A stretch of 55,944 nucleotides of DNA from Verrucomicrobiales bacterium (GTDB taxonomy: Bacteria; Verrucomicrobiota; Verrucomicrobiia; Limisphaerales; UBA11320): the NCBI GenBank assembly GCA_016793885.1, contig JAEUHE010000154.1, forward strand, positions 1 to 55,944. The letters are read 5' to 3'. Shown here one piece after another: positions 47,145 through 55,944 of the stretch. Numbering within the stretch: the first letter of the stretch is position 1; each line of letters opens with the position of its first letter. The position numbers and the translations under genes were made by a program. The notes beneath the pieces are model-generated. The model had not been told where the DNA came from, ran no database searches, and saw only the letters and a list, made by a program, of their open reading frames with translations.

Positions 47145-47192
47145 TGGATTTGAATCGATCGCGATCAACCAAACCGAACAACGACTGAATTG

Positions 47193-48752
47193 ATGTCCTT
47201 TCCTTGGCTGACATGCCTGACCGTGGTGCCGCTCCTGGGCGGAGTGATGGTCGTGGGGCTGGATGAGCGTTTCGAGCGCTGGTCGAGACGTCTGGCACTA
47301 TTCTTTCAGTGTCTCGCGCTGGCGCTGGTGGCTGGAGTCGCCTGGCAATTTGACACCTCGGCAACCGCCATGCAGTTCGTGGAGAAGGCCAGCTGGATCC
47401 CATCGATCCAGGTCAACTACCACTTGGGGGTGGATGGGCTGGGGTTGTTGATGATCGCTCTGGCCGCGCTCGTGCTTCCGTTCGCCACTCTGATGACGGC
47501 CCCAGACGTTCGGAACCAAAGCCTCTACTACGCCTTGATGCTGTGGGTGCAATCCGGCCTCTTCGGAGCATTCACCGCCCTGAACTTCGTTCATTGGTTT
47601 CTGTTTTGGGAGCTGAGCCTGATTCCGGCCTACTTTTTGATTAAGCTGTGGGGCGGCCCACAGCGAGGGCCAGCTGCCCGACTCTTCTTTGTCTACACCA
47701 TGGCCGGGAGCATCGCCCTGCTCTTGAGTTTCTTAGGAACCTATGTCGCCACCGGAACCTTCGATTTCCAGCAGCTCGCGGAGAAGGGTCGGGGGCTGGA
47801 TGGAGGTTTGGCGGCGCTGTTCAACATCAAGCTCGCCTGGTACTCCCTCTCCACCCGGACACTGGCGCTGATTCTGTTCGGCGGTGCCCTGCTGGGCTTC
47901 GCGGTTAAAGTCCCCATCTGGCCCTTTCACACCTGGCTGCCATTGGCGTATTCGGAAGCGCCGACCCCGGTGACCATGGTCCTGACCGGGGTGATGTCCA
48001 AACTCGGGCTCTACGGCGTTCTGCGCCTCTTGTTGCCGATTTTCCCCGAACAAATGCGCTGGGTTCAAACGCCGCTGCTCTGGTTGACCATCGCCTCGAT
48101 CGTTCTGGGCGCACTGGCTGCCATGGCCCAACGAGATCTGAAACGGATGCTGGGCTACCTCTCGATCAGCCATCTGGGCTATTGCTGGCTGGGAGTGCTG
48201 GCGGCGGTGCAGATCACTCCGGGCGATTCCAAATGGATGGTGGAGAAATCTGCCGCCCTCAGCGGCGCGATGCTTCAGATGTTCAATCACGGCGTGATCG
48301 CGGCGACCTTGTTCGGCATGGTGGGTTACTTGGAACTCCGTTCCGGGGGCCGACGAGACATCGACGACTTTGGCGGCCTTCGACAGGTGGCACCGGTCTT
48401 CTGCGGATTGATGGGCATAGCGCTCTTCGCTTCCATCGGGCTTCCGGGGCTCAGCGGGTTTGTGGGAGAGCTGCTGATTTTCAAAGGGGCGGTGGCGCTG
48501 ACCACGTGGGCGGCGGCCCTATCGACCGGGGGCCTGCTCATGACGGCGGTTTTCTTACTGACGCTGGCACAAAAAGTCTGGCACGGACCACTGAAAGCGT
48601 CCGGAGAAACATTTGCAGATCTAAGCTGGAAAGAGCGGTTGACGGTAACTCCCGCCATCGGCCTTATTTTCCTCCTTGGCGTGTATCCCCAGTGCGTGTT
48701 GAAGTTCGTCAACCCCACGGTGTTGACCTTGGTAGAAGGGTTGGGATTCTGA
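47193..48752 (+). CDS. nuoM: NADH-quinone oxidoreductase subunit M, first copy
   Basis: A 519-residue antiporter-like subunit. All pumping residues expected from E. coli NuoM are in place: E140 in FWELSLIP, K239 in GFAVKVPIWPFHTWLP, K270 in TGVMSKLGLYG, and the late glutamate in GLSGFVGELLIF. ATG 47193 is used; a TTG codon directly precedes it. The stop codon overlaps the ATG of the second nuoM by one base (TGATG), so the two are translationally coupled. Its sequence is clearly diverged from the second copy. Confidence 0.92.
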   Translation: MSFPWLTCLTVVPLLGGVMVVGLDERFERWSRRLALFFQCLALALVAGVAWQFDTSATAMQFVEKASWIPSIQVNYHLGVDGLGLLMIALAALVLPFATLMTAPDVRNQSLYYALMLWVQSGLFGAFTALNFVHWFLFWELSLIPAYFLIKLWGGPQRGPAARLFFVYTMAGSIALLLSFLGTYVATGTFDFQQLAEKGRGLDGGLAALFNIKLAWYSLSTRTLALILFGGALLGFAVKVPIWPFHTWLPLAYSEAPTPVTMVLTGVMSKLGLYGVLRLLLPIFPEQMRWVQTPLLWLTIASIVLGALAAMAQRDLKRMLGYLSISHLGYCWLGVLAAVQITPGDSKWMVEKSAALSGAMLQMFNHGVIAATLFGMVGYLELRSGGRRDIDDFGGLRQVAPVFCGLMGIALFASIGLPGLSGFVGELLIFKGAVALTTWAAALSTGGLLMTAVFLLTLAQKVWHGPLKASGETFADLSWKERLTVTPAIGLIFLLGVYPQCVLKFVNPTVLTLVEGLGF

Positions 48753-50266
48753 TGCTCGCTTGGCCTATATATCTGTGTCTGATTGGGGCGGCTGTCCAGT
48801 GGCTGCTGCCCAAGGACGATGCCCAGCCATCCCGCGTCGCAGCCCTCGTCACGGCGCTCGCCTGCCTGGGATGCGCGTTGGGGGGAGCGTTGGGACTGAC
48901 GGTTGAAGGCGGCTTGCAGACCATCACTCGTATCCCATGGGTGCCGGGTTTGGGGATCGAGTACTTTTTGGCCGTCGATGGCATTAGCCTTACCCTGGTG
49001 ATTCTCACCGGGATCGCGGCCACGGTGGGGGTCCTGTTCTCCTGGAACATTGAACATCGTCCCCGAGAATTCTTTTGCCTGTACTTGCTCCTCCTGGCCG
49101 GTTGCTTTGGCGTGTTCCTGAGTGCGGACTTGTTCCTGCTCTTCGTGTTCTACGAGCTGGCGATCATCCCGAAGTATTTCCTTATCGCCATCTGGGGTTC
49201 CAAGAATCGCGAGTATGGAGCCATGAAACTCGCGCTCTACTCCTTCATTGGAAGTGCGTTGGTCCTGGCGGGACTCGTAGCGGCCTATGTGGTGTCGGGT
49301 GCTAAAACCTTCAGCCTGCTCGAGCTGGCGCAGTTTCCCTTCGCGGAGACGTTCCAGTACTGGGCCTTCCCGGTGGTGTTCGTGGGATTTGCGATTTTGG
49401 CGGGTCTATGGCCATTTCACACCTGGGCGCCCACGGGACATTCCGCCGCCCCGACTGCAGCCTCCATGCTCCTGGCTGGCGTCGTCATGAAGTTAGGTGC
49501 TTACGGTGCCCTCCGCGTGGCCATTGTGTTGTTTCCCCAAGGGGCCATGGCTTGGCGCGGCGTGTTCTGCACGCTGGGTGCCGTCGGCATTCTTTACGGA
49601 GCGCTGGTCGCGCTGACCCAGAAAGACCTGAAATATGTCATCGGCTATTCGAGTGTCAGCCATATGGGCTTCGTGCTGCTGGGGATGGCGACGCTCTCGA
49701 CGATAGGGCTCAGCGGGGCGGTCCTGCAGATGTTCTCCCATGGTATCATCGGGGGACTGCTGTTCGCCGTCGCGGGCCGCATGGTTTATGACCGCACCCA
49801 CACTCGGGATCTGATGGAACTCCAACGCCTGCGCCTGAGCACCGCATTCCCGTTTGCCGCCGTCACGTTCGTTTTGGCGGGACTCGCCTCGATGGGGATT
49901 CCTGGTTTTAGCGGCTTCGTCGCGGAGATGAAGGTGTTGATCGGAGCGTGGCAGGTCTACCCGGGGCTGGCGGTCTTGTCGGGCATCGGCATCGTGGTCG
50001 GCGTCGCTTACACGCTCAGGGTGATCCAGATGACCTTTTACGGCGTGGCGAGTGGCGAAGCGGATCTGAACCTGCCGGCGGCGCGGGCCCTCACCGAAGG
50101 AGACCATGCCACTCCCATCTCGGTTCCCGAGCGCTTCGGCGCCCTGTTCCTGATCGCTCTGACCCTGGCCATTGGACTTTATCCGCGGCTGCTGCTGGAC
50201 TGGATTGTTCCGGCCTTCAGCTCGCCCCTGTTCGACGGTCTGCGAAAAGCGGGAGGTTTGGAGTGA
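48752..50266 (+). CDS. nuoM: NADH-quinone oxidoreductase subunit M, second divergent copy (NuoM2)
   Basis: A 504-residue second NuoM-type subunit. E135 (FYELAIIPKYF), K247 (AGVVMKLGAYG) and the late glutamate in GFSGFVAEMKVL are present, but the membrane lysine of helix 7 is not: the FAVK position reads FAIL (residues 213-216 in VGFAILAGLWPFHTW). Its start overlaps the stop of the first nuoM. Together with the long lateral helix of NuoL it suggests that the membrane arm holds four antiporter-like modules (L, M, M2, N). It is intact and shows no sign of decay. Confidence 0.9.
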   Translation: MLAWPIYLCLIGAAVQWLLPKDDAQPSRVAALVTALACLGCALGGALGLTVEGGLQTITRIPWVPGLGIEYFLAVDGISLTLVILTGIAATVGVLFSWNIEHRPREFFCLYLLLLAGCFGVFLSADLFLLFVFYELAIIPKYFLIAIWGSKNREYGAMKLALYSFIGSALVLAGLVAAYVVSGAKTFSLLELAQFPFAETFQYWAFPVVFVGFAILAGLWPFHTWAPTGHSAAPTAASMLLAGVVMKLGAYGALRVAIVLFPQGAMAWRGVFCTLGAVGILYGALVALTQKDLKYVIGYSSVSHMGFVLLGMATLSTIGLSGAVLQMFSHGIIGGLLFAVAGRMVYDRTHTRDLMELQRLRLSTAFPFAAVTFVLAGLASMGIPGFSGFVAEMKVLIGAWQVYPGLAVLSGIGIVVGVAYTLRVIQMTFYGVASGEADLNLPAARALTEGDHATPISVPERFGALFLIALTLAIGLYPRLLLDWIVPAFSSPLFDGLRKAGGLE

Positions 50267-51741: not shown

Positions 51742-52107
51742 CGGGGGAGCGGCGAGTTTCCGACGGAGGGGGCGATTACGATTACGATTACGATTACGAT
51801 TACGATTACGATTACGATTACGAGAGAGAGGGAGAGGTGTTGCCCGCGGAACACACGGATCAGGAACAGGATCCCTGAGCAGATGAATTCTTTCCCATCC
51901 GAGTCATCCGTGAAATCCGTGGTTACCACTCCTGTTTCCCAGTTGGTTCCTCTCCGCGCCTTTGTGGGCAAACAGGTTCCCAGTTGACTGCCGGCTCGGG
52001 ATCCCCGGTGTGACCTCTATGCTCTCCGGGTGAAAAAGGCGCTCCAACCCCGATGTCTCACACAGAGGCCGCAGAGCTCACAAAGGATCGAGTTTGACAG
52101 CCCGGGT
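51742..52107. other. Gap between convergent nuoN and glycosyltransferase genes
   Basis: This 366-base stretch holds the GATTAC repeat, a GAGAGAGAGGGAGAGG stretch, two copies of TTCCCAGTTG (near 51936 and 51977), and a segment reading ATCCGTGAAATCCGTGGTTA, a type of low-complexity sequence that looks repetitive. I see no gene and no clear terminator hairpin. Confidence 0.4.
51774..51821. repeat. Tandem hexanucleotide repeat (GATTAC)8
   Basis: Eight perfect copies of GATTAC run from 51774 to 51821, starting 32 bases after the nuoN stop codon. As the unit is six bases long, changes in copy number would not shift a reading frame. It is a candidate slippage-prone microsatellite. Confidence 0.95.
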
Positions 52108-53307
52108 TTAACTCCATTCCGCTCGCGAGACGAATGACACATCAACTCCCAAGGTTAGACTTATCACCTCCAGCCACTTCGGAATTAAACTATCCCACGT
52201 CAAGGTCCGGGCAAATTCTCGCCCCGCTGTTCCGTACGTTTCTACCAGCCCGGGGTCTAGATACAATTTCTCGATGCAGCACGCTAAGTCGTCTGGGTCG
52301 ATCACCGCATGTTCCACGACGTTCGTTCCCGTGGTAATGGTTGTCAAAATCCTCGCCAGTTCTCCTCTCCCTCGAACCAATTCAGAGCAGGCGCTGTAGT
52401 CGGTGGCGACCACGGGTACGCCAGCCGAAAGGCTTTCGATGATCGGAAGCCCAAAACCTTCTGCGTTGCTTGGGAGTGCGGATATGTCGAAGAGGTTGTA
52501 AATCTGGTTAAGATGTGGATCTGGAATCGCCCTATCGAGTGAGAAATCGGGGCTGCACACGTCGGCTTTTCCCTCTAAACCATACCTGCGAAACAGGGTC
52601 ACAATGTCGTGACCTACATCGCACGGATTCATGTGGAGATAGAGGTGGATATCGTCGTACTTCGCTGCCAACAGCGCGAACGCCTTCACCAAAGCAGGGA
52701 TGTTCTTTCGCGGTTGATTACGTGCCACGCAGCCGACCACAAATTTGCCCTGGAACCGTGGGTGGCCCTTAATATCACTTCGGTTTGGAAGAGGTTGAAA
52801 GACCTCTGTGTCAACGCCGTGGTAAATGAGATGTGACCGCTTTGAGGGGATGCCGGTCTTTAAAACACTTCTACCAAATTCGGACATGCAGACGATCTCA
52901 TCCATCCCCATCAGGACGGACTCCCATGGTGGATAGAGCGGGCCCGCATCCACGGGGACGTAGGAGATCCATTTGAAGCCTTTTCGTGTGGAATGAGTGT
53001 GGATCCACTGTGTCATCCAGATCTCCCCTAGGCTGATGACAAGGTGTGGCTGGAACTCGTTGACAGCTCGTTCGAAGGAATCCTGACCATGGCTGCCCGC
53101 CGAGGAAGGATACATCCTGAGTGGATACGACGACGATGGGTATGGCCAGCCATCATATCCAACTCCGACCACAGCCAGTTCAAACCTTGGATTCTTCGCC
53201 AGACGAGTAGTCAGCTCTCGACTCACTCGACCGAAACCTGTCGCCAATAGCGGACTGTCGCTGACCCACAATATTCTAATCGTGCGACTCAAAGTGTTGG
53301 GTATCAA
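52108..53307 (-). CDS. Glycosyltransferase family 4
   Basis: A 399-residue GT-B glycosyltransferase. The C-terminal donor-binding half has VGCVARNQPRKN (R196/K201) and the EX7E pair E283/E291 in SNAEGFGLPIIESLSAGVPVVATD. The N-terminal half starts ILWVSDSPLLATGFGRVSREL, the Gly-rich loop of the acceptor side. No membrane helix is seen. Donor and acceptor are unknown. It is the last gene of the minus-strand module that holds the beta-helix and small beta-rich proteins, so it may glycosylate a phage, capsule or surface structure. GC is lower than in the nuo operon. Confidence 0.85.
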   Translation of the reverse strand: MIPNTLSRTIRILWVSDSPLLATGFGRVSRELTTRLAKNPRFELAVVGVGYDGWPYPSSSYPLRMYPSSAGSHGQDSFERAVNEFQPHLVISLGEIWMTQWIHTHSTRKGFKWISYVPVDAGPLYPPWESVLMGMDEIVCMSEFGRSVLKTGIPSKRSHLIYHGVDTEVFQPLPNRSDIKGHPRFQGKFVVGCVARNQPRKNIPALVKAFALLAAKYDDIHLYLHMNPCDVGHDIVTLFRRYGLEGKADVCSPDFSLDRAIPDPHLNQIYNLFDISALPSNAEGFGLPIIESLSAGVPVVATDYSACSELVRGRGELARILTTITTGTNVVEHAVIDPDDLACCIEKLYLDPGLVETYGTAGREFARTLTWDSLIPKWLEVISLTLGVDVSFVSRAEWS

Positions 53308-53530
53308 TGGTCACGGGAATGTAGGCACTGATGTGACAACCCTCCCACCAGCCCGGTTCAGGCATCGCATACGAGCCAGGCCAATTCTGTGGATCGGATC
53401 GCCGCTGTCTCAGCTTCCTGATCGTGAGCTCAGGAAGATAGAGTTGGATCGCGCGATGCACAGTGTTATCGCTCATACCAATTGATCTGCGGCGATCTTC
53501 CAACTCAGACCAAAACACGCGGTGAACCAT
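53276..53530 (-). CDS. Small hypothetical protein in phage-like module
   Basis: An 84-residue reading frame that fits between the 104-residue gene and the glycosyltransferase, overlapping the latter's start by 32 bases. Its composition is protein-like, with a basic helical stretch (EDRRRSIGMSDNTVHRAIQ, with LRQRRSDPQNWPG after it) and a Trp-rich centre (PGWWEGCHISAYIP). I do not recognise the family. Its position in an otherwise tightly packed minus-strand series supports it as a gene, but a spurious frame cannot be excluded. Confidence 0.45.
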   Translation of the reverse strand: MVHRVFWSELEDRRRSIGMSDNTVHRAIQLYLPELTIRKLRQRRSDPQNWPGSYAMPEPGWWEGCHISAYIPVTIDTQHFESHD

Positions 53531-53586
53531 TGGGGACTAAACATTCCGTTCCGGGAGATATCCAGATACCACTTCAGCACAATGGA

Positions 53587-53901
53587 TCAGGTACGATCGG
53601 CTCCGAAGGCAACAAGGTCGTACGTTCCTGTAGAGCTGGCCTTGATAATGTTTCCAAGAGTCAGGGTGATCTCACCAGGGAAAATGGCGGGGGTCGCCGC
53701 ACCACACGAAATTCGAGCAAATGGCACCCCAGGGGTTGCAGCTGCGTCCTTCAGAAAATAGAGGTCCACATTGGTTGCACCCGCGCTGTAGCACCGAATG
53801 TTGCTTACAATCGTAGATGTCGCGGGCGCCTGAACCGTGTAGATGGTCTGAAGACCAGTCACGCCGGAAAGGGATCCAAGAGTCTTAAGAATGAATGGCA
53901 T
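53587..53901 (-). CDS. Small beta-rich phage-structural-like protein, paralogue A
   Basis: A 104-residue protein without signal peptide or helices. It is rich in Thr, Ala, Gly and Ile and predicted to be all-beta. It resembles the neighbouring 112-residue protein over its length: each has an N-terminal L..L..(S/T)(G/P)V segment, a middle NIRCYSAGATNVDLYFLKD against VAIFNNSTTSLTVSLLRG, and a similar end (YDLVAFGADRT against ITVLLFGIERD). Such proteins occur as small decoration or tail-associated proteins in tailed phages; the assignment is inference. It lies 38 bases downstream of its paralogue. Confidence 0.6.
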   Translation of the reverse strand: MPFILKTLGSLSGVTGLQTIYTVQAPATSTIVSNIRCYSAGATNVDLYFLKDAAATPGVPFARISCGAATPAIFPGEITLTLGNIIKASSTGTYDLVAFGADRT

Positions 53902-53939
53902 AGAAGTTGGAGAATTATCGTTGTTGGCGCCGAGAGAAC

Positions 53940-54278
53940 CTAGTCCCTTTCAATTCCGAACAGCAGCACGGTGATGTTAGCACCACCGCCTGTTGGCGTT
54001 GCAGAGGCCTGCGCACTTAAGCCTTCCGCCGCCGCCAACTCGACCACATCACTCATGAACGCAGAAGCAGAGGCCCCTAGCGTCGCCGTTTTGTGGATCG
54101 GAACTGTCCCTCGTAGGAGACTTACTGTCAGACTCGTTGTAGAATTATTAAAAATCGCCACACCCGATATTAAAGCGGATTTCGGAGACACCGGTGAATA
54201 TATGCTCGTGCTGCTATTGGTGGTAAGAAGCATTACGCCGGGGGTAAGTGCATTGAGGACTTTGATATTTGTTGCCAT
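53940..54278 (-). CDS. Small beta-rich phage-structural-like protein, paralogue B
   Basis: A 112-residue protein, probably all-beta, without signal peptide. It starts MATNIKVLNALTPGVMLL and ends GANITVLLFGIERD, parallel to the adjacent 104-residue protein, so the pair looks like an old tandem duplication. The middle has a run of Ser/Thr-rich strands, and SASAFMSDVVELAAAEGLSAQ may be an amphipathic segment. The function is unknown; context with a beta-helix protein suggests a virion or tail-fibre-associated protein. It follows the beta-helix gene by about 95 bases. Confidence 0.6.
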   Translation of the reverse strand: MATNIKVLNALTPGVMLLTTNSSTSIYSPVSPKSALISGVAIFNNSTTSLTVSLLRGTVPIHKTATLGASASAFMSDVVELAAAEGLSAQASATPTGGGANITVLLFGIERD

Positions 54279-54372
54279 AGGTTCTTAGTGGATATCTGGC
54301 TCTTCGACGATTTTGTATTTCAGAATCGAGTCTCGCACATGTCTGTTTCGCGACATGCCCGCACACACTCGA

Positions 54373-55797
54373 TCAAGCTCGATGACGCAAGAGGGAAAGT
54401 ATAAATCCATCATCTGCGTCGGTTGCTAGCTCGGTGTAGAGACTGTTGTTTTCTTCTTTGAATCCTTGTACCAGTTTGCCCGCGGGAGCCCGGTTTTCGA
54501 AATACTGAACGGAGACGCACGCCTTGTTCGATAAGTTCGTCAGGCCTGGTAAAGCCGGAGAAGGTGGCGTAGGATTAAGGTCGAGCACGTTCTCTCGTAC
54601 CAACAAATTATTGACTCCTATAAGCATGGCACCACTACCTTTTTGATTACCCGGTGTCTGTCCGTTGAGATAACCAATCTTGTTGTTACGAACTATCACG
54701 TTGCCATAGGGAACTCCCGAGTTGTTGTTGTAGGTAATCACTCCCAAGGCATACCGATCTGAAATACCAGTTGGTTTAACATCAACCGGGGTTAGTTCGA
54801 TGACATTATTTTCAATAAGCAAACTCTTCACCGCGTACACCCCCCCGCCGGGCGCGGCCATCTGGAAATTTGGTCCAGCCGCTACGTTCCGATAGGTGTT
54901 GTTTCTTATAGTGATATCGACCGCCCCGAGTGTACTGAAGGGACCACCCTGAAAAATGTTTTGAATTTGGTTTCCTTCAACGACGCCGCCCTTGCACCAT
55001 GCCATTGCCATCGCACGTGCGTAATTTGCGGGCGTTCCGTCCGTCATGGTCGTACGTCCGCCATCCACAAAGCAGTTTCTGATGTAGGGGCTTGTTCCAT
55101 CAACTTGCGTAAAATTTCCTTCCGGGAAACCAACATGAAGCGCCGTCATATGCCGTGTCCACGTCGATCCTGGCTCGATGACGATGCAGTCTTGGATCCC
55201 GCAGTTCGTCACCGCACTCGAGAGGTTCGTTCCGTCGCCCGTAAGCATACCGATCACGTAACCCAGATTCCCACTGGATTGTTTGCTTCCCCAGTTTTTG
55301 ACCTTAACCTGAACGACACGCGAGTGGTTTCCCATGATCCGGACAGCTCCAAATGAGCTAGCACCGCTGTTCGCCGAAAAATTACAATCGATGGTCAGCG
55401 AGCTGACCTCACAATAGTCAGCACTCGTAGTCAGAGCATGTCCGACCGCGTAGATGTTTTTGGACGCAGTGGTATTGACAAGTTGGATGGTCGTCACATC
55501 AATGCCGGAACCCACTATCCGGATGCCGGGGCGCAACTGCCATCCCCCCGAAATACCGTCGTAATAACCCGTGGTTTGAAATACTCCTGGCCCCAGATGA
55601 ACGCAGCTGTTGTTTGAGATTCTTGTCGTGGGTGACGTGGCCCATAAAGCATCGAAATCGGCGGGAGTGTTCGCCAAAACAGTGAAAGGATCGTTTTGCG
55701 TGCCCGTGCCCAAAATTCCGGCGGAACCGCCCGATCTTACGGTGACCCACACATCAATCCTTGGTGGATCCAGTAGCAGCGCATCAATTAATGACAT
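54373..55797 (-). CDS. Right-handed beta-helix protein, tail-spike/pectate-lyase-like
   Basis: A 474-residue protein whose central part (about 95-420) has repeating beta-helix rungs: VRIMGNHSRVVQVKVKNWG, IQDCIVIEPGS, VVEGNQIQNIFQGG, ITIRNNTYRNV, LLIENNVIELTP, VIVRNNKIGYLNG and LLVRENVLDLNP. No signal peptide is present, which argues against a secreted pectate lyase and for a virion tail-spike or similar adhesion protein. The N-terminal part (DPPRIDVWVTVRSGGSAGILGTGTQNDPFTV) may be an attachment domain. It is the first gene of the minus-strand module and stands 97 bases from an IS3-type transposase start on the other strand. Confidence 0.7.
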   Translation of the reverse strand: MSLIDALLLDPPRIDVWVTVRSGGSAGILGTGTQNDPFTVLANTPADFDALWATSPTTRISNNSCVHLGPGVFQTTGYYDGISGGWQLRPGIRIVGSGIDVTTIQLVNTTASKNIYAVGHALTTSADYCEVSSLTIDCNFSANSGASSFGAVRIMGNHSRVVQVKVKNWGSKQSSGNLGYVIGMLTGDGTNLSSAVTNCGIQDCIVIEPGSTWTRHMTALHVGFPEGNFTQVDGTSPYIRNCFVDGGRTTMTDGTPANYARAMAMAWCKGGVVEGNQIQNIFQGGPFSTLGAVDITIRNNTYRNVAAGPNFQMAAPGGGVYAVKSLLIENNVIELTPVDVKPTGISDRYALGVITYNNNSGVPYGNVIVRNNKIGYLNGQTPGNQKGSGAMLIGVNNLLVRENVLDLNPTPPSPALPGLTNLSNKACVSVQYFENRAPAGKLVQGFKEENNSLYTELATDADDGFILSLLRHRA

Positions 55798-55842
55798 AGT
55801 GAAGTGAGGCGGACCCCGAAAACCGGGCCAGGGGTTAAGCTA

Positions 55843-55944
55843 TGATTGTGGCTGAAGGGTGTGGGTGTTAAACCCAAACCACAGCGACACATAATGAAAG
55901 CCAAACGGAAAAGACACGAACCCGAATTCAAGGCCCGCGTAGCC
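55843..55944 (+). mobile_element. Left end of an IS3-family insertion sequence (partial)
   Basis: The window ends inside an apparent IS3-family element. Its transposase start codon lies at 55894. A possible terminal sequence starts at TGATTGTGGCTGAAGGG (55843), beginning with TG as IS3-family ends do; the right end is outside the window, so the exact border and inverted repeat cannot be confirmed. Confidence 0.5.
55894..55944 (+). CDS. IS3-family transposase OrfA, N-terminal fragment (cut by window end)
   Basis: Only 17 codons are visible, MKAKRKRHEPEFKARVA, running off the window. This is the standard beginning of the helix-turn-helix protein (OrfA) of IS3-family elements, where K-R-x-R-H-x-P-E-F-K-A-R-V-A is highly conserved. 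The rest of OrfA and the DDE-type OrfB must lie beyond the edge. The resemblance is strong despite the short length. Confidence 0.8.
   Translation, partial: MKAKRKRHEPEFKARVA

Follow-up and report, generated by a model that had tools for sequence, protein, structure and literature searches.

A multi-copy operon in a Verrucomicrobiales genome combines beta-helix proteins, phage-type small proteins and glycosyltransferases with a secreted protein

The DNA analysed here (the window; 55,944 nucleotides) is the entire contig C154 (JAEUHE010000154.1) of the draft genome of a Verrucomicrobiales bacterium (GCA_016793885.1; 8.7 Mb in 274 contigs). A minus-strand gene series near its right end (52108-55797) constitutes the distal portion of a bacterial operon, conserved and present in several copies, with the order A-S-B-X/Y-[G]-Z-GT4, in which A and B are beta-helix proteins, S has a Sec-like N-terminus, X and Y are small paralogous beta proteins, G is Gly-rich, Z is a small protein and GT4 is a glycosyltransferase of family 4. 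Its families are known, their combination is new, and no description of the operon was found in literature searches limited to open-licence papers. It is best read as a domesticated or shared fibre-glycosylation cassette joined to a secreted protein of PEP-CTERM type. With a confidence a little short of even, we propose that its beta-helix proteins, phage-type small fibre proteins, glycosyltransferases and secreted protein together form a glycosylated structure, located on the cell surface or in the matrix, that serves attachment or the handling of polysaccharide.

Operon copies in the genome

Complete copies of the operon were found on three other contigs of the same genome (C249, C233 and C178). 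Upstream of B, each carries A, a longer beta-helix protein of 800-900 aa, and then S; downstream follow X, Y (or one X and the Gly-rich G), Z and GT4, with a second GT4 at the end of the C233 copy. Neighbouring reading frames overlap, A and S sharing 4 bases in both C249 and C233 and S sharing 14 with B in C178, a sign of a single transcript. All X/Y matches in the genome (7/7) and all strong GT4 matches (4/4) fall in operon copies. The parts are held to belong together because the same order recurs in paralogous copies of one genome and in three genera.

The window copy was compared with that of C249. In B, change per codon position was 0.30/0.24/0.67, highest at the third, and dN/dS was about 0.08 for X and about 0.08 for Y. 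Because the changes fall mostly at third positions, the module genes are real and under purifying selection. DNA identity between the two copies is 80% for GT4 (window 52108-53307 against C249:19116-20421) and only about 60% for B; the gap suggests gene conversion or different rates.

The window copy is partial. A and S are not in the contig, and the operon is cut at an insertion sequence (IS) of IS3 type, whose left end lies on the plus strand at 55805..55944. This element starts upstream of B, 7 bases from the start codon and at the position held by S in the other copies, and its orfA-like start (MKAKRKRHEPEFKARVA) begins at 55894 and runs off the contig end. The element recurs twice, both times likewise at a contig end. 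Elsewhere in the genome, C149 holds a broken A-S remnant whose B retains about 25 codons before an IS-like end (L061 1-266); the sequence after this B stump resembles the terminus of another IS, different from the first. It is unlikely that C149 is the upstream half missing from the window copy, since it has its own B start, cut beside another IS-like end. The S gene of C179 was ruled out for that role, as it sits mid-contig amid unrelated genes. The S domain is also present outside the operon: a single 1673-aa open frame (G000:C103:57102-60179) contains four of them, and C179 and C152 have one each.

Distribution in Verrucomicrobiota

The operon was found in 6/196 sampled genomes of the order, in three genera. 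The X/Y profile, which marks the operon more strictly than the B profile does, matched 7/196 genomes of the order (four of the window's own genus, two of other genera and one marginal match). The B profile found relatives, mostly distant, in 21/196 genomes of the order and in 5/387 drawn from the phylum. Named relatives are metagenome-assembled genomes of Verrucomicrobiota (UBA11320, Limisphaerales PMV_1.23 and NC_groundwater_1051), and S, B, X/Y and GT4 remain syntenic in UBA11320 and PMV_1.23. Contigs of one relative, G002 (L062, L063, L069, L095), repeatedly start or stop within gene B, perhaps through near-identical copies or rearrangement.

Small proteins and glycosyltransferases with phage relatives

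In the window, X (53940..54278, minus strand; 112 aa, ending in GIERD) and Y (53587..53901, minus; 104 aa) belong to one family, as the preliminary description of this DNA, made from the sequence without database searches, had supposed in calling them paralogues. The viral-contig scan for this family was run with a single member, the full X/Y alignment being too divergent. The X/Y profile matched small proteins of the fibre regions of Streptomyces phage Caelum (gp22; E 2e-13) and Pelagibacter phage HTVC106P (gp53 and gp46; E 1.7e-12) and a viral contig protein (E 1.5e-19); hmmsearch matches to phage proteins spanned 1.5e-19 to 2.7e-8, and the hhalign probability against the phage family was 97.9. 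When the predicted fold was searched against BFVD, many small tailed-phage proteins were recovered, some of them annotated as virion structural (E down to 3e-7, TM about 0.7). Profile and predicted fold thus place X and Y in a PHROG 1276-like family whose members are small virion proteins of phages. Their Caelum and HTVC106P relatives lie in the tail-fibre regions of true phage genomes, in which a relative of B or GT4 was absent from the stretches examined. Solved structures did not yield a function for X, as the best matches (Z about 10; baseplate cup, Ena appendages and phage cement proteins) reflect a fold that is too common.

Z (53276..53530, minus; 84 aa) has a PGWWEGCH motif near its C-terminus and overlaps the start of GT4. 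In other copies its place is taken by a tetratricopeptide repeat (TPR) protein that shares the PGWWE motif or, in G012 and G002, by a protein with a family 2 glycosyltransferase and TPR (GT2-TPR).

GT4 (52108..53307, minus) scored 59.8 bits against PF00534 (Glycos_transf_1; cut-off 26.4), in agreement with its earlier naming as a GT4 enzyme. Against PF20706 (GT4-conflict) it scored 26.5 bits (cut-off 26.0), with general GT4 models far higher. Its best NCBIfam relative, far below that model's cut-off, is a PEP-CTERM/XrtA-system glycosyltransferase. GT4 belongs to PHROG 2170, of which the phage members in Synechococcus phage S-CBS4, Tetrasphaera phage TJE1 and Microcystis phage Mae-JY09 share 26-30% identity over most of its length. 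These phage enzymes are encoded near portal, terminase or capsid genes; X/Y-like or B-like neighbours were not detected in the stretches examined, and the small proteins adjoining the S-CBS4 enzyme, tried as relatives of X, are not X-like.

The GT2-TPR proteins of G012 and G002 are PHROG 13126. In a contractile-tailed phage (viral contig L132, IMGVR_UViG_3300042543_000436), an X-family protein stands beside a fibre and a GT2 that is likewise PHROG 13126, an arrangement shared with those two operon copies. The row reads portal, major head, collagen-like fibre, X, minor tail, GT2, tail sheath and tail tube; it thus lies between phage head and tail-sheath genes and has a collagen-like fibre where the operon has the beta-helix proteins A and B. 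S was not seen in L132, nor was a GT4 match.

Beta-helix proteins A and B

B (54373..55797, minus; 474 aa) was modelled with moderate confidence (mean pLDDT 59, pTM 0.70). The structure-based search that the preliminary description had advised matched the model to solved right-handed beta-helices (Z about 30), and the adhesin PfbA, the lyase RbmB, AlgE epimerases and phage tailspikes scored alike, with PL6 enzymes also among the best. B is therefore predicted to have the right-handed beta-helix fold of tailspikes. With the tailspikes HK620, Sf6 and phi29 gp12 and the surface adhesin PfbA it shares this fold alone, at 8-15% sequence identity. No tail operon was found around B at any complete copy, and B has no viral relative in the collections searched: matches were found neither in phages nor in IMG/VR viral contigs. 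A likewise had no match in IMG/VR viral contigs, and it has stretches matching the phage tail-fibre profiles phrog_9998 (2.7e-10) and phrog_529 (3e-8).

The termini of A and B are alike (N-terminal MSLxDALLLDP; C-terminal ELxTxxEDAxxLxLL-like) and their middles differ. In the window, B begins with MSLIDALLLDP and ends with ELATDADD..LSLL. Distant B relatives outside the operon lack these terminal signatures.

Chromosomal setting

The flanks of the three complete copies were checked for about 15-30 kb on each side where contigs allow; to the right of the window copy the contig ends. Three readings had been offered in the preliminary description: the end of a prophage, a phage-derived particle or a cell-attachment locus. 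In the first two, the module would be a tail-spike end, with head and tail genes beyond the IS, and the phage-like X/Y and glycosyltransferase families, the GC below that of the neighbours and the stretches of A that match tail-fibre profiles speak for this. The three complete copies stand instead amid housekeeping or otherwise ordinary chromosomal genes (glycogen debranching enzyme, aminopeptidase, sigma factor, pseudouridine synthase, HlyD/MacB). Terminase, portal, capsid and tail tube were absent from the 25 families listed, of 59 PHROGs families matched by 88 flanking open reading frames (ORFs); two of those 25 are named 'tail' or 'minor tail' and are not tied to a particular gene. A genome-wide search for the terminase family PF03354 was empty, other terminase families not being searched genome-wide. 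No viral relative of the whole operon was found in phages or IMG/VR, where only the X/Y and glycosyltransferase families matched, and a Sec-secreted gene of PEP-CTERM type lies between A and B. The chromosomal neighbours and the absence of assembly genes among the families listed for the checked flanks speak against a prophage remnant there, and the whole reading, phage-derived particle included, is considered improbable.

Accordingly, the end of a prophage is not supported. Of 'phage-derived', what stands is that X/Y and the glycosyltransferases belong to families of phage fibre or structural regions. The phage reading was to fall if the neighbours proved to be polysaccharide biosynthesis only, with no phage genes within 30 kb; phage genes were largely absent over that distance at the copies that could be checked, and the polysaccharide-biosynthesis neighbours did not appear.

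A further possibility is a chromosomal store of fibre cassettes with which an infecting or resident phage or tailocin recombines for host-range change. Several divergent paralogues per genome, the greater divergence of B than of GT4 between copies, and the frequent breaks of contigs and genes within B are what such a store might leave. Set against this, the surroundings of the copies yielded no phage, tailocin or sheath gene, and the operon, which has retained a secreted gene, is under purifying selection on its own. A cassette store is very improbable.

Protein S and sorting

The Sec-like N-terminus of S was found by a simple hydropathy scan. The S of C178 passed the Pfam and NCBIfam cut-offs for PEP-CTERM, and the tail was seen by sequence on the S of L097, L063 and L064. 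Two exosortase genes are present in the genome. With a signal peptide, a PEP-CTERM tail and an exosortase in the genome, the S of C178 is classed as a predicted PEP-CTERM protein. S thus resembles the known substrates of PEP-CTERM/exosortase (EpsH) sorting in its Sec-like signal, in the tail carried by several copies and in the exosortases of the genome. PEP-CTERM genes form mostly single-gene operons (PMC1569441); unlike these, S sits within a multi-gene operon with leaderless beta-helix genes. PEP-CTERM proteins have been linked to producers of exopolysaccharide and to a surface-associated way of life (PMC1569441).

Proposed function and its alternatives

Among the three readings named in the preliminary description, a cell-attachment locus appears to fit best. 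A and B would act as binding or enzymatic rods, with X and Y as small jelly-roll-like, fibre-associated proteins of the phage virion family. GT4, joined in certain copies by GT2-TPR or the second GT4, would glycosylate one or more of the operon proteins. S would leave via Sec and, in part of the copies, be sorted by PEP-CTERM/exosortase to the outer surface or matrix. The products would act jointly and extracellularly, for attachment to or handling of polysaccharide, and the phage-like parts would derive from phages rather than the reverse. It is possible, if doubtful, that the terminal tags of A and B direct these proteins, which have no Sec signal, to a surface that S holds, where X/Y join and the glycosyltransferases decorate, to give several differently tipped glycosylated fibres per cell.

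Several observations weigh against this proposal, and its main gap is export. A signal peptide is present on S only; none was found by hydropathy scan on A, B, X, Y, Z or G, and the operon has no dedicated secretion gene. The S proteins of C249, C233 and C149 are without the PEP-CTERM tail. Binding and catalysis by B cannot be told apart, because adhesin, lyase, epimerase and tailspike folds score alike.

The missing leaders on A, B, X, Y and G would be expected of a cytoplasmic or lysis-released structure, such as an intracellular scaffold, in which these proteins stay inside the intact cell and S is a mere neighbour. Gene overlap and constant order in all complete copies bind S to A and B, however, and this explanation is quite unlikely.

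The operon might also be an exopolysaccharide locus, in which A and B are beta-helix enzymes of epimerase or lyase type, GT4 is an ordinary glycan synthase and no fibre is made. RbmB, AlgE and PL6 enzymes among the best solved folds for B, the PEP-CTERM/XrtA-system enzyme as the best sub-threshold NCBIfam relative of GT4, and the tie of PEP-CTERM to exopolysaccharide (PMC1569441) all point that way. Flippase, polymerase and sugar-nucleotide genes were, however, not seen in the copies or near neighbours, A and B are leaderless though such enzymes work outside, and X/Y, of a virion protein family, would be without an evident role. We regard an exopolysaccharide locus as unlikely.

Through this bacterial operon, a poorly understood small phage virion family and glycosyltransferases of phage type are connected with a protein that is secreted and sorted to the surface. 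If the operon's parts act jointly, the bacterium offers a route to learning what these phage proteins do, and fibre parts shared by phages and cells would have been put to the cell's own use. The case also cautions against annotating such loci as prophage remnants.

Other features of the window

The five minus-strand genes were found at the coordinates and on the strand first described for them. The beta-helix fold of B and its want of a signal peptide also held, by the predicted model and the simple hydropathy scan, respectively, as did the IS3 neighbour, by its left end at 55805 and orfA-like start at 55894. The base composition, described as unlike that of the nuo operon, proved to lie below that of the other long ORFs of the window: GC of the five genes was 0.51-0.54 against a mean of 0.585 (sd 0.02), and GC at third codon positions (GC3) was 0.52-0.60 against a mean of 0.68 (sd 0.04). 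Lower GC and GC3 are common to all operon copies. A CGATTA tandem repeat of 8.5 perfect copies (window 51773-51823) lies in the gap that separates the module from the end of the nuo operon. At window 47190-50266, two NuoM-like genes in tandem are followed by a NuoN-like gene.

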